Positions 22,254 through 28,877 of a stretch of DNA of 63,387 nucleotides are shown in pieces; position 1 is the stretch's first letter; every line of letters starts with the position of its first letter. The notes beneath the pieces were generated by a model. That model ran no database searches, had not been told where the DNA came from, and saw nothing but the letters and a program-made list of their open reading frames with translations. Where the stretch lies: the NCBI GenBank assembly GCA_035936835.1, contig DASYVT010000123.1, forward strand, positions 1-63,387. The letters run 5' to 3'. Position numbers and translations under genes: made by a program. This stretch comes from Candidatus Methylomirabilota bacterium (GTDB lineage Bacteria; Methylomirabilota; Methylomirabilia; Rokubacteriales; CSP1-6).

Positions 22254-23440
22254 CCTTCGAGCGCGCGCACGGCCGCGGCCATCCGGCTCATGCCTTCCTT
22301 GATGGTTTCGAGCCCCGTCGCGTACGAGAGACGGATGTGGGCGTCCGAGCCGAAGTCTACGCCTGCCACCGTGGCGATCAGGGCTTCTTCCAGGAGAAAG
22401 GCGGAGACGTCTCCGGATCCCTTGAGCGTGCCGCCTTTCCAGCGCTTGCCGAAAAGCCCCGAGACGTTGGGGAAGACGTAGAAGGCGCCCTTGGGCATGA
22501 CGCAGCTGATGCCGGGGATGGCGTTGAGCGCCTCCACGATAACGCGGCGGCGCCGGTCGAACTCGCCCGCCATCTTGGCGACCTCATCCTGCGGTCCTGC
22601 CAGCGCCTCGACGGCCGCCCACTGGGCGATCGAGGTCGGGTTCGACGTCACCTGGCTCTGGATGTCGGTCATCGCCTTGATGATGAGCTTGGGGCCCGCG
22701 GCGTAGCCCAGCCGCCAGCCCGTCATGGCGTACGCTTTGGAGCAGGTGTTGACGACGAGGGTGCGCGCCTTGATCTCCGGCGAGAGCGACGCAATCGAGA
22801 CGTGGCGCCCCTCGTAGGTCAGCGCCTCGTAGCATTCGTCCGAGACGATCCAGAAGCCGCGCTCGACGGCGAGCTGCCCCACCTCCTTGAGCGCCGCCGC
22901 CGAGAAGACCGCCCCCGTCGGGTTTCCAGGGCTGTTGAGCACCAGGATCCTGGTCTTTGCCGTCACCGCCCGCTGGACAGCCTCGGGATCGAGGTCGAAG
23001 CCGGTGGACTCGAGCGTCTCGACGGGCACGGGAACGCCGCCCAGGAGCCGCACCTGCTCGGGATAGGACACCCAGAACGGGCTCGGGATCACGACCTCGT
23101 CGCCCGGGTTCACCAGCGCCATGACGATGTTGTAGAGCGTGTGCTTGGCGCCGCAGGAAGCGGTGACCTCGTCGGGCGCGTACTCGAGGCCCAGGTCGCG
23201 CTTGAGCTTGTGGCAGATCGCTGCGCGCAGCTCGGGGATGCCGCCGACCTCGGTGTACTTGGTCTGGCCGCTCTCGAGCGCGCGGATCGCCGCGTCCTTG
23301 ATGCGGCGGGGAGTGTCGAAGTCGGGCTCCCCCGCCCCGAAGGAGATGACGTTGATGCCCTGCGCGCGCATGGCCTTGGCCCTGGCCTGCATGGCGAGCG
23401 TGGGCGAAGGCTGGAGCGTCTTGAGGCGGTCGGCGAGCAT
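22250..23440 (-). CDS. PLP-dependent aminotransferase, aspartate aminotransferase type
   Basis: A 396-residue class I aminotransferase (fold type I). The motif NSPGNPTGAVFS binds PLP, SDECYEAL carries the conserved Asp, and SKAYAMTGWRLGYA contains the Schiff-base Lys. A C-terminal Arg in IRLSYAT binds the substrate carboxylate. It most likely transfers the amino group between aspartate and 2-oxoglutarate; some members also accept prephenate. The gene follows coaD by 9 nt. Confidence 0.92.
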   Translation of the reverse strand: MLADRLKTLQPSPTLAMQARAKAMRAQGINVISFGAGEPDFDTPRRIKDAAIRALESGQTKYTEVGGIPELRAAICHKLKRDLGLEYAPDEVTASCGAKHTLYNIVMALVNPGDEVVIPSPFWVSYPEQVRLLGGVPVPVETLESTGFDLDPEAVQRAVTAKTRILVLNSPGNPTGAVFSAAALKEVGQLAVERGFWIVSDECYEALTYEGRHVSIASLSPEIKARTLVVNTCSKAYAMTGWRLGYAAGPKLIIKAMTDIQSQVTSNPTSIAQWAAVEALAGPQDEVAKMAGEFDRRRRVIVEALNAIPGISCVMPKGAFYVFPNVSGLFGKRWKGGTLKGSGDVSAFLLEEALIATVAGVDFGSDAHIRLSYATGLETIKEGMSRMAAAVRALEG

Positions 23441-26970: not shown

Positions 26971-26998
26971 CGACGGGGGGCGTTGCCGCCCCCCGTCG
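26971..26998 (+). terminator. Hairpin terminator after rpmB
   Basis: A perfect 12-bp stem, CGACGGGGGGCG (26971-26982) and CGCCCCCCGTCG (26987-26998), closes a TTGC loop 18 nt after the rpmB stop. The following sequence is only mildly T-rich. It may serve both rpmB and the convergent small ORFs. Confidence 0.75.
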
Positions 26999-27062
26999 GG
27001 TCCTGCTGTTGCAGCGTGGTAAACGCCGGTGGAAGGCCGCCACCTCCCACCAGCCCAAAACA

Positions 27063-27104
27063 CTACTTCTTCTTCTTCTTGGCCGCCTTCTTCTTCTTCG
27101 CCAT
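27063..27104 (-). CDS. 13-residue lysine-rich mini-protein
   Basis: The frame reads MAKKKKAAKKKKK then TAG, all nine lysines encoded by AAG. An AGGGGGTGA Shine-Dalgarno (27112-27120, one mismatch to the ideal) lies 7 nt before the ATG. It is 51 nt downstream of a second lysine-rich frame on the same strand, and probably on the same transcript as the AbiEi-like gene. It is too short for homology; nucleic-acid binding is a guess from charge. The ribosome-binding site argues that it is translated. Confidence 0.6.
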   Translation of the reverse strand: MAKKKKAAKKKKK

Positions 27105-27155
27105 TTGGAAGTCACCCCCTTTCCTCTGCAATCGTACGGCTTAGTAGCAGCGCGG

Positions 27156-27227
27156 CTAGTGCCGCTTCCGCCCCTTCGTCGCCTTCCTCCGCTTTGCGCT
27201 CTTCTTCTTCGCCTTCTTCTTCGCCAT
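27156..27227 (-). CDS. 23-residue lysine/arginine-rich mini-protein
   Basis: The frame begins MAKKKAKKKSAKRRK and ends GRKRH before TAG; 14 of 23 residues are Lys or Arg. Its ribosome-binding site AAGGAGGTGA (27236-27245) is a complete match to the 16S 3' end, with 8 nt to the ATG, about as strong as possible. It starts 54 nt after the AbiEi-like gene and precedes the 13-residue frame, with which it shares the MAKKK start. The composition resembles short histone-H1-like tails. Function unknown. Confidence 0.68.
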   Translation of the reverse strand: MAKKKAKKKSAKRRKATKGRKRH

Positions 27228-27281
27228 TGGAGGGCTCACCTCCTTCCGGTCCCGCGTCTGGCCGGTCCCGCGTGTGGACGT

Positions 27282-28328
27282 CTAGAAACCCATGGCCTCG
27301 CGGCGGAGGTGGGCCGCCTGCTCTCGGCCCCGCCGCTCGTAGTGGTAGAGGTCCGCGTACAACTGAGGCAGGGACACGACCGGCACCCCGCTCTTCGTGA
27401 TTGGCGCGTGGAAGACACCCGGGTCATAGGGCGCCAGGAGGTGGACGTTGCCCTCGTCCTCGCCGGGCCTCAGCCCAAGGGCCTTCGCCACCGGCTCGGG
27501 GTCACCCTCGATGTAGCAGTGGATGGCCGGAAAACGGACATTGGGCGCCACGAGTGCCGCGCCCGCATGGAGCGTGAACGCGAAGCGCCGATCCGCCTCT
27601 TGGGCAGCGCGGGCGAGGTCGCCGACCAGCTTCCGTGTGATCCGCTCCGGCGAGAAGTAGGTCGCGATCTCATTGAGGCGATACGTGTAAGCGTCTACCC
27701 ATGCGTCGAGCAGATCGGCCGGCTTGCTCAGGTGGATACGCTGCTGCTCGCCGCGCTCGACCCACGCCAGGTCGCCCAGCCGCTTGACCACGTTGTGGGC
27801 GTGGCCGAGGCTGACCTGCGAGGCCTTCGCCAGCTCGTCGAGCCGCCAGAGACGGCCGGGATCGACGAGGAGCGTCCGGACCACTCGGGTCGCCCGGGGC
27901 GCGAAGAGGGCCTTGAGCGGGCGCGTGGACGGCCTGAGGTTGGGCTTTCCTTCCTTCTCGATCAGGACATTCCCGAAGGCGAGATAGCAATTCCCGGACA
28001 GGTCGAGGTAGCCCAGCCCATTTCGCTTGAGCAGCCCGGCCCCCTGGGGGCTGATGTACTGGGCGACGGCAACCGGGTAGGCCCCGTCAATCTCCGCGCG
28101 AAGCTCTCCCAGCCTGGTAATAGCCTCACGGATCTGCTTGGGCTGACCGACGGAAGTTACTTCTAGGAGCAAGGTCTGATCCTGGCCTCCGAGCTTGAAT
28201 TTCACCAGCAGATCAGTCTTTTGGCCCTTAACCTTGGGGCCGGCAGACTCCTCCCATGCCACAGCCTTCGGGAACAGCTCCCGAAGTCGCTGGGCCGCCG
28301 ATCGCCTGATTTCCTGCGTATTCTCCAT
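27282..28328 (-). CDS. AbiEi-like (type IV antitoxin family) winged-helix protein
   Basis: A 348-residue protein resembling stand-alone members of the AbiEi antitoxin family. It has an N-terminal domain with TDLLVKFKLGGQDQTLLLEV, a GYLDLSGN segment, a probable winged helix (RLWRLDELAKASQVSLGHAH with VVKRLGDLAWVERG), and a C-terminal region ending SLPQLYADLYHYERRGREQA. The start is the ATG at 28328; an upstream in-frame extension would run through the promoter. No AbiEii nucleotidyltransferase toxin is adjacent. A palindrome at its start point suggests autoregulation. Family assignment is from memory of sequence features. Confidence 0.68.
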   Translation of the reverse strand: MENTQEIRRSAAQRLRELFPKAVAWEESAGPKVKGQKTDLLVKFKLGGQDQTLLLEVTSVGQPKQIREAITRLGELRAEIDGAYPVAVAQYISPQGAGLLKRNGLGYLDLSGNCYLAFGNVLIEKEGKPNLRPSTRPLKALFAPRATRVVRTLLVDPGRLWRLDELAKASQVSLGHAHNVVKRLGDLAWVERGEQQRIHLSKPADLLDAWVDAYTYRLNEIATYFSPERITRKLVGDLARAAQEADRRFAFTLHAGAALVAPNVRFPAIHCYIEGDPEPVAKALGLRPGEDEGNVHLLAPYDPGVFHAPITKSGVPVVSLPQLYADLYHYERRGREQAAHLRREAMGF

Positions 28329-28347: not shown

Positions 28348-28394
28348 TTTTCAGCGTACGCTGAAAACATACGAACAATTGAAAGTGCTGTCAA
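28348..28394 (-). promoter_or_regulatory. Promoter and 20-bp palindromic operator of the AbiEi-like gene
   Basis: On the minus strand, TTGACA (28389-28394) and TATGTT (28366-28371) are 17 nt apart. The perfect palindrome TTTTCAGCGTACGCTGAAAA (28348-28367) overlaps the end of the -10 and covers the expected transcription start, ending 19 nt before the ATG. A dimeric DNA-binding protein here would block transcription; the AbiEi-like product itself is the obvious candidate. Confidence 0.82.
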
Positions 28395-28505: not shown

Positions 28506-28877
28506 CTACTGGCCCTGCTCGATGCCTTCCATCGTGTCGTCGTCGAGGCCGAAGTAGTGCCCGATCTCGTGGATGACCGTGTCCCGGACAAGCTCGGCCA
28601 TCTCCGCGGCGTCGGCGCAGTCTTCCTCGATGGGCCCCTGATAGATGTGGATCGTGTCGGGGAGGACGTTGCCGTACGAGGTATCGCGGTGGGTCAGGTC
28701 GATCCCGCGGTAGAGACCGTAGAGGGTCTCGGGCGGCTCGATGTCGAGCTCGCGCAGCGTCTCGTCGTCGGCCCAGTCCTCGACCACGATGGCGACGTTG
28801 GCGATCTTTTCCTTGAACCGGCGGGGCAGCGTGCGCAGGGCCCGCTCGACGAGGGCCTCGAACTCGCTGTGGGTCAC
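28506..28877 (-). CDS. Minimal metallopeptidase family (zincin-like) protein
   Basis: A 123-residue protein of the compact zincin-like metallopeptidase family found in many bacteria. The zinc motif is HEIGH (residues 103-107) followed by FGLDDDTM, where an Asp probably serves as third ligand. LYGLYRGIDLTHR and LPDTIHIYQGPIEE are typical of the family. The GTG at 28877 overlaps the rel stop (GTGA). The physiological substrate is not known. Confidence 0.85.
   Translation of the reverse strand: MTHSEFEALVERALRTLPRRFKEKIANVAIVVEDWADDETLRELDIEPPETLYGLYRGIDLTHRDTSYGNVLPDTIHIYQGPIEEDCADAAEMAELVRDTVIHEIGHYFGLDDDTMEGIEQGQ

Follow-up and report, generated by a model that had tools for sequence, protein, structure and literature searches.

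Tandem lysine-rich mini-ORFs with exceptional ribosome-binding sites are conserved at the ends of small operons in Methylomirabilota and many Nitrospirota

The window analysed here, the whole 63,387-nucleotide stretch of a Candidatus Methylomirabilota bacterium (order Rokubacteriales), has a G+C content of 68% and belongs to a genome of 4.1 Mb. It carries an AbiEi-like gene, c0, whose neighbours are a zincin-like metallopeptidase gene, RelA/SpoT, two mini-ORFs, rpmB and recG. Consistent with the initial annotation, which had described two tandem Lys-rich mini-ORFs on the same strand as the AbiEi-like gene, both frames were found on the minus strand. At this locus the order of transcription is the 23-mer and then the 13-mer. 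The features are as follows.

28506-28877: zincin-like metallopeptidase gene, adjoining c0
27282-28328, minus strand: c0, AbiEi-like protein of 348 amino acids with likely start MENTQEIRR; predicted N-terminal PD-(D/E)xK nuclease-like fold, central winged-helix (wHTH) domain and C-terminal AbiEi_2 domain (PF09952; structural model and Foldseek)
27236-27245, minus strand: Shine-Dalgarno (SD) site of mini-ORF 1, AAGGAGGTGA, 8 nt before the ATG
27156-27227, minus strand: mini-ORF 1 (proximal), 23 residues, MAKKKAKKKSAKRRKATKGRKRH, stop TAG (read from the sequence)
27112-27121, minus strand: SD site of mini-ORF 2, AAGGGGGTGA, 7 nt before the ATG, with a G.U wobble to the anti-SD
27063-27104, minus strand: mini-ORF 2 (distal), 13 residues, MAKKKKAAKKKKK, stop TAG (read from the sequence)

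The near-perfect SD sites that had been claimed, an exact decamer at 8 nt and a one-mismatch version at 7 nt, are thus borne out. Within the 63 kb window the exact decamer stands before a start codon only once, and the only other one-mismatch sites, at 23355 (+) and 23742 (+), lie ahead of frames antisense to coaD and seem fortuitous. In GGGGGTGA the 'mismatch' G pairs with the anti-SD U as G.U, so that both sites are pairable over their full length; this variant is frequent among mini-ORF SDs. The SD/anti-SD duplex energy of the mini-ORFs has a mean of -17.6 kcal/mol (range -18.8 to -16.0), whereas for eight neighbouring genes the average for the best possible SD is -5 to -9 kcal/mol. An SD-sequestering hairpin was rejected as a general feature, being present at some loci only (mean z -0.5 versus mononucleotide shuffles).

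None of 60 first-order Markov shuffles of the window yielded a Lys-rich short frame with such an SD, which upholds the earlier suggestion that the sites are unlikely by chance, and 10 window shuffles gave no such frame regardless of SD. The genome contains 43 (A/G/T)TGGCNAARAAR sites, and inspection of 30 gave only three mini-ORFs with a strong SD. A third genomic copy, MAKKKKAAKKKKR, lies on another contig (G000:C135:42372), 3' of a phosphoribosyltransferase gene (c9). Longer histone-H1-like proteins of the form MAKKK...AAKK, whose genes lack strong SDs, are encoded in the same genome (L082, 1500 minus; L088, 1500 plus).

Lack of conservation in relatives had been set beforehand as the refuting condition, and the data go decisively the other way. 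A c0 orthologue with 58-98% identity is present in every genome searched of families f1-f4, a few as contig-end fragments, and one or two Lys-rich mini-ORFs lie closely 3' of c0 in all 59 syntenic orthologue loci with downstream sequence, across four families. There are two mini-ORFs in 51 loci and one in 8 (49 and 10 under a stricter filter), each with an (A)AGG(A/G)GGTGA-type SD. The gene content upstream of c0 varies among genomes, and c0 and the mini-ORFs were never seen separated by another gene. At distant c0 paralogue loci mini-ORFs were found in 0/16. Frame, start, SD and stop are all kept, as expected of the real, related and unannotated genes with exceptional ribosome sites that had been proposed. 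Together, the shuffles and the conservation rule out a chance origin. That both frames are genuine micro-genes is not seriously in doubt; their function is what we infer below.

The arrays extend beyond c0. In other Methylomirabilota families the core gene set comprises c24 (wHTH plus NTase-like) and c20 (HEPN), and Lys-rich mini-ORFs with the same SDs stand at the end of the c24 locus in 30/30 loci examined outside Rokubacteriales. They are 12-24 residues long in families other than f5; in the Methylomirabilis-type family f5 the proximal mini-ORF mostly has 23-32 residues, is rich in K, A and P and frequently has GRGC or GKGC at its C-terminus. Among Nitrospirota, 69 of 198 genomes contain a c24 homologue, and 28 of the best 30 loci carry one to three mini-ORFs, including loci where c20 was undetected. 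Of the two exceptions, one contig ends too early and the other locus (L407) is without a convincing frame. One Nitrospirota c24 locus carries a 74-aa (AAKKKTTKKK)n form. In genome G173 (L377) of the same phylum, the gene after the c24-mini array is the zincin-like metallopeptidase gene also found beside c0 in the window, so that the synteny spans two phyla. The c9 site has a single mini-ORF, in about 10 genomes (e.g. L053 4518-5500).

In total, conservation covers about 117 loci in two phyla, plus negative controls. No mini-ORFs were detected in 199 kb around profile-detected c24 homologues of Acidobacteriota (30 loci) and Desulfobacterota (30 loci); three loose matches there are not Lys-rich and were lost under a stricter scan. 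A reversed-pattern control gave 0 in 60 and in 95 genomes. The expectation that the mini-ORFs always neighbour the AbiEi-like gene therefore holds within the order Rokubacteriales (59/59) and fails elsewhere, where the partner is an unrelated wHTH-NTase gene or the phosphoribosyltransferase gene; a link to AbiEi only was rejected, as the partner gene changes across families and Nitrospirota. Since the same arrays stand behind c0 and the unrelated c24/c20, it is the mini-ORFs that stay constant and the partner protein that is exchanged. The array is found throughout one phylum, Methylomirabilota, and in many members of another, Nitrospirota, and no described gene family covers the mini-ORFs.

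The distal mini-ORFs show an excess of third-position differences (0/5000 permutations as large); in the proximal ones the excess is not significant (P 0.27). After the Met, residues are K (70%), A (18.5%), R (3.6%), T (3.5%) and G (2.7%). The AAA share of Lys codons is 8.0% versus 7.8% in neighbouring genes, and K-to-R replacements occur mainly through CGN codons. The genomic AAA share and the mostly CGN arginines suggest that charge is kept, rather than an AAG tract or RNA motif.

Both ends of the c0 operon carry conserved elements.

28366-28394, minus strand: c0 operon promoter, consensus TTGACA-17-TATGTT, 10/12 consensus matches
28348-28367, strandless: probable operator, perfect 20-bp palindrome TTTTCAGCGTACGCTGAAAA overlapping the -10 region (sequence and conservation)
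27025-27054, minus strand: conserved RNA hairpin after the distal stop, core GGTGGGAGGTGGCGGCCTTCCACC at 27028-27051 (fold and conservation)
26971-26998, minus strand: second hairpin, GC-rich and followed by a short T run, probable operon terminator common with convergent rpmB (fold; it failed the 5-T rule of the terminator scan)

In the 40 distinct c0 upstream regions listed, TTGACA is followed about 17 nt later by a -10-like element and after it by the palindrome TTTCAGCN4GCTGAAA (imperfect in L057); throughout Rokubacteriales, about 37-40 nt separate this palindrome from the c0 start. The copy at 28348-28367 is the only exact match in the window, and with up to 2 mismatches allowed the chance expectation is 0.08. 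Before most c24 genes, the -10 element lies between GTTGACA and a TCAAC repeat. Operators through which wHTH proteins repress transcription are typically found at such positions. The palindrome before c0 is likely to be an autoregulatory operator; it is from operator position and the wHTH content of c0 and c24 only that we infer autorepression.

The location of the mini-ORFs bears on whether they could be leader peptides attenuating a downstream gene. Short frames, strong SDs and repeated codons would suit such a role, which is nevertheless barely credible here: the mini-ORFs stand at the operon 3' end, convergent rpmB comes next at the c0 site, and the genes downstream differ among c0, c9 and c24 sites. 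An attenuator or leader was rejected, there being no conserved regulated gene immediately downstream at these three kinds of site.

In Rokubacteriales the hairpin core, GGTGGGRGGTGGCGGCCTYCCACC, starts 11-20 nt past the distal stop in 56/59 loci. Three positions of the stem form G.U pairs, in 35, 8 and 40 of 45 distinct sequences respectively; read from the opposite strand these pairs would become A.C mismatches, which means that the hairpin acts, if at all, in the mini-ORF (minus-strand) RNA. The c0-site hairpin has one copy in its own genome. The hairpins at c9 and most c24 sites differ in sequence, and none is obvious in f5. At the c9 site the mini-ORF stop is followed, about 18 nt on, by a hairpin of its own, CGGCCCTGTCGGCCCCATCCCGGCAGGGCCG, which is very conserved. 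Rfam 15 covariance models gave no gathering-level match in the window, and chance-level matches only in this region. An ACTCAT-like motif common to the regions after the hairpins is too weak to claim.

A strand-specific conserved hairpin and full-length SDs are also what would be expected if the purine-rich SD/AAG tract and hairpin acted as RNA, for example as an anti-SD sponge or as a protein-binding or 3'-end element, with the peptide incidental. We consider this improbable, given the codon-phase pattern and the CGN arginines. Moreover, the frames persist at c9 and c24 sites, where the hairpin differs, and in the Methylomirabilis group, where no comparable one exists, and Rfam gave no match.

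The mini-ORFs end in TAG or TAA in 212/212 cases and in TGA in 0/212 (sets of 108, 60 and 44, not phylogenetically independent), a large contrast with c0 itself, which ends in TGA in 50/62. Avoidance of a GTG restart in AAGTGA would not account for the f5 frames ending TGC TAG. The absence of TGA points to selection on termination, and thus fits a model in which the peptide is a by-product of a ribosome trap: maximal SDs would load ribosomes and consecutive Lys codons would slow them a few codons after the start, so that, with tandem frames, two or three ribosomes would sit on each mRNA and thereby throttle translation or shield the mRNA 3' end. SD strength, the tandem copies and the onset of the Rokubacteriales hairpin core 11-20 nt after the stop are in keeping with this, as is the published slowing of E. 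coli ribosomes in vitro at consecutive AAG codons, from the second lysine on (PMC4363877). However, the proximal mini-ORFs of the Methylomirabilis group are mostly without KKK runs (MAAKKPAAKKAAPKK...), longer K/A/P-rich forms exist, and the codon used, at genomic proportion, is AAG and not the more strongly pausing AAA. On balance the trap appears rather unlikely. The scarcity of KKK runs in f5 peptides and the longer H1-like Nitrospirota forms favour instead a reading in which the peptides themselves are the active products.

The upstream proteins were also compared with known families. The c0 protein matches PF09952 (AbiEi_2) with an E value of 5.8e-7 and 30.4 bits, against a cutoff of 21. 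Its AlphaFold model, built from 5 sequences, has a mean pLDDT of 58.7 and is poor beyond residue about 125 except in the wHTH; it suggests a PD-(D/E)xK-like N-terminal domain (NucS/EndoMS, E 4e-4) and a MarR/IclR-like wHTH, the C-terminal half being unreliable. No lysine is conserved at the c0 ExK position, and the acidic residue is sometimes replaced. Outside the window, c24 matches PADLOC PDC-M05A (E 4.4e-38) and c20 matches PDC-M05B (E 2.2e-7), whereas c0 matches PDC-M05A in the wHTH only (E 0.0006). The HEPN RX4-6H (RX4H) histidine is kept in 4/30 c20 rows, and the MNT GSx...DxD active site is missing from the Methylomirabilota c24 rows, which read GAIDVL, GPIRLM, GAIFLL and similar. Profile comparison detected no homology of c0 with c24 or c20, though c0 and c24 both contain a wHTH.

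These matches raise the possibility of a toxin-antitoxin or defence module, in which AbiEi-like or HEPN/NTase proteins would act together with the cationic peptides as toxin or modulator. Like AbiE type IV systems, c0 has an AbiEi_2 domain, a wHTH and a palindromic operator upstream, and c24 with c20 recalls HEPN-MNT (type VII) systems and PADLOC PDC-M05A/B in its model matches and in the presence of the gene pair; the operon also appears to be operator-controlled. On the other hand, no AbiEii-type NTase gene was seen beside c0 among the ORFs read and the synteny clusters, c0 has an added N-terminal nuclease-like domain and is followed by poly-Lys genes, and both c0 and c24 are vertically kept core genes. 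The NTase active-site residues, the nuclease ExK and the HEPN histidine are not conserved, and such degenerate motifs argue against a working toxin-antitoxin pair. The mini-ORFs cannot be a general feature of all PDC-M05A homologues, being absent at 60 loci in two other phyla. A toxin-antitoxin or defence role thus has a low probability. As the enzyme sites look decayed, the upstream proteins seem to be regulators rather than toxins.

Our preferred reading, in which we have moderate confidence, is that the mini-ORFs encode free polycationic micro-peptides that are released when a wHTH autorepressor lets go and that probably bind nucleic acid, either DNA or rRNA. The mini-ORFs would be the last cistrons of a small, probably self-regulating operon whose promoter overlaps a palindromic operator. 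The winged-helix protein of the first gene (c0, or elsewhere c24, often with the HEPN protein c20) most likely binds this operator and keeps expression low. Once repression is lifted, one to three mini-ORFs with SDs fully complementary to 16S rRNA would be very efficiently translated, giving free, disordered polycations that consist of K and A with a few T, R, G, P and S and measure about 10-32 residues, or more in some Nitrospirota. The peptides most likely act in trans on DNA or rRNA, like detached histone-H1-like tails. Action in trans is suggested by upstream genes that are not detectably homologous and downstream genes that differ between sites, and the H1-like character by the Methylomirabilis-group forms (MAAKKPAAKKAAPKKAAPKK...) and the 74-aa Nitrospirota form. 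Nucleic-acid binding is suggested by the charge of the peptides, the low-complexity sequence carrying little fold information.

Several points stand against this peptide reading. A free 12-residue polylysine could be quickly degraded, the proximal mini-ORFs lack a significant third-position excess, and the total absence of TGA, also after codons not ending in G, is unaccounted for. Of the three functions first offered for the mini-ORFs, a nucleic-acid-binding peptide fits best, Lys-dependent stalling is less likely in view of the forms with few or no KKK runs, and a toxin is without positive support. More tentatively, and with a lower probability, the arrays may represent a new autoregulated operon type. 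In it, a wHTH protein that arose from toxin-antitoxin or defence components and whose enzyme sites have decayed would control a burst of poly-Lys micro-peptides, encoded behind the strongest possible SDs, that globally slows translation, whether as ribosome traps or as rRNA- or DNA-binding polycations.

AlgP, chlamydial Hc1/Hc2 and the HupB C-terminal tail are histone-H1-like, K/A/P-rich, acid-poor polycations, and the mini-proteins resemble them as judged by composition only; they differ in being about 10-32 residues long and tandem, with their own maximal SDs and linkage to wHTH operon genes. In size and basicity the 23-mer also falls in the range of bTHX, bL37 and bS22. By analogy with these, the mini-ORFs might encode small ribosomal or ribosome-associated proteins, and the strong SDs would be in keeping with that. 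We regard this as very improbable: most copies have only 10-14 residues with little specific sequence, the arrays hold one to three copies per locus of varying length, and they lie outside ribosomal operons, apparently under operator control.

The NCBIfam curated library matched the 23-mer with 0 families, and a literature search, incomplete in coverage, found no description of mini-ORF arrays. The GMSC small-ORF catalogue predicts ORFs down to 30 nt and counts Methylomirabilota and Nanoarchaeota among those phyla with the highest smORF density; the main-text passages found hold no description of the mini-ORF array, and individual mini-ORF sequences may be listed in it (PMC11364881). The biochemical role of the arrays could still prove to match that of small nucleic-acid-binding proteins of a kind already described. 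Standard annotation and proteomics would both miss the mini-ORFs because 10-14 codons are below the usual limits and trypsin cuts such peptides up. They offer a case, with unusually strong evolutionary evidence, on which the shortest of conserved protein-coding genes can be tested, and in which decayed toxin-antitoxin proteins may have found a new use as regulators. They are also a test case for what a cell gains from placing the strongest possible ribosome site before almost pure lysine.

Among the GTDB matches listed are look-alikes with SDs next to unrelated genes in DPANN archaea, at L173 in Nanoarchaeota (4001) and L146 in Woesearchaeota (4170), and one with an SD beside unrelated genes in Parachlamydia (L167). 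A further DPANN look-alike mini-ORF is found at L152 (2950 on minus), and a Nanoarchaeota look-alike, MAKKKAKKAKKKKK, has the SD AAGGAGGTGA. Some Methylomirabilis-group and Nitrospirota mini-proteins end in a cysteine (GRGC, KKKKRC, KKGKC; L339-L352, L379-L382, L391-L394), which suggests disulfide dimers or attachment.
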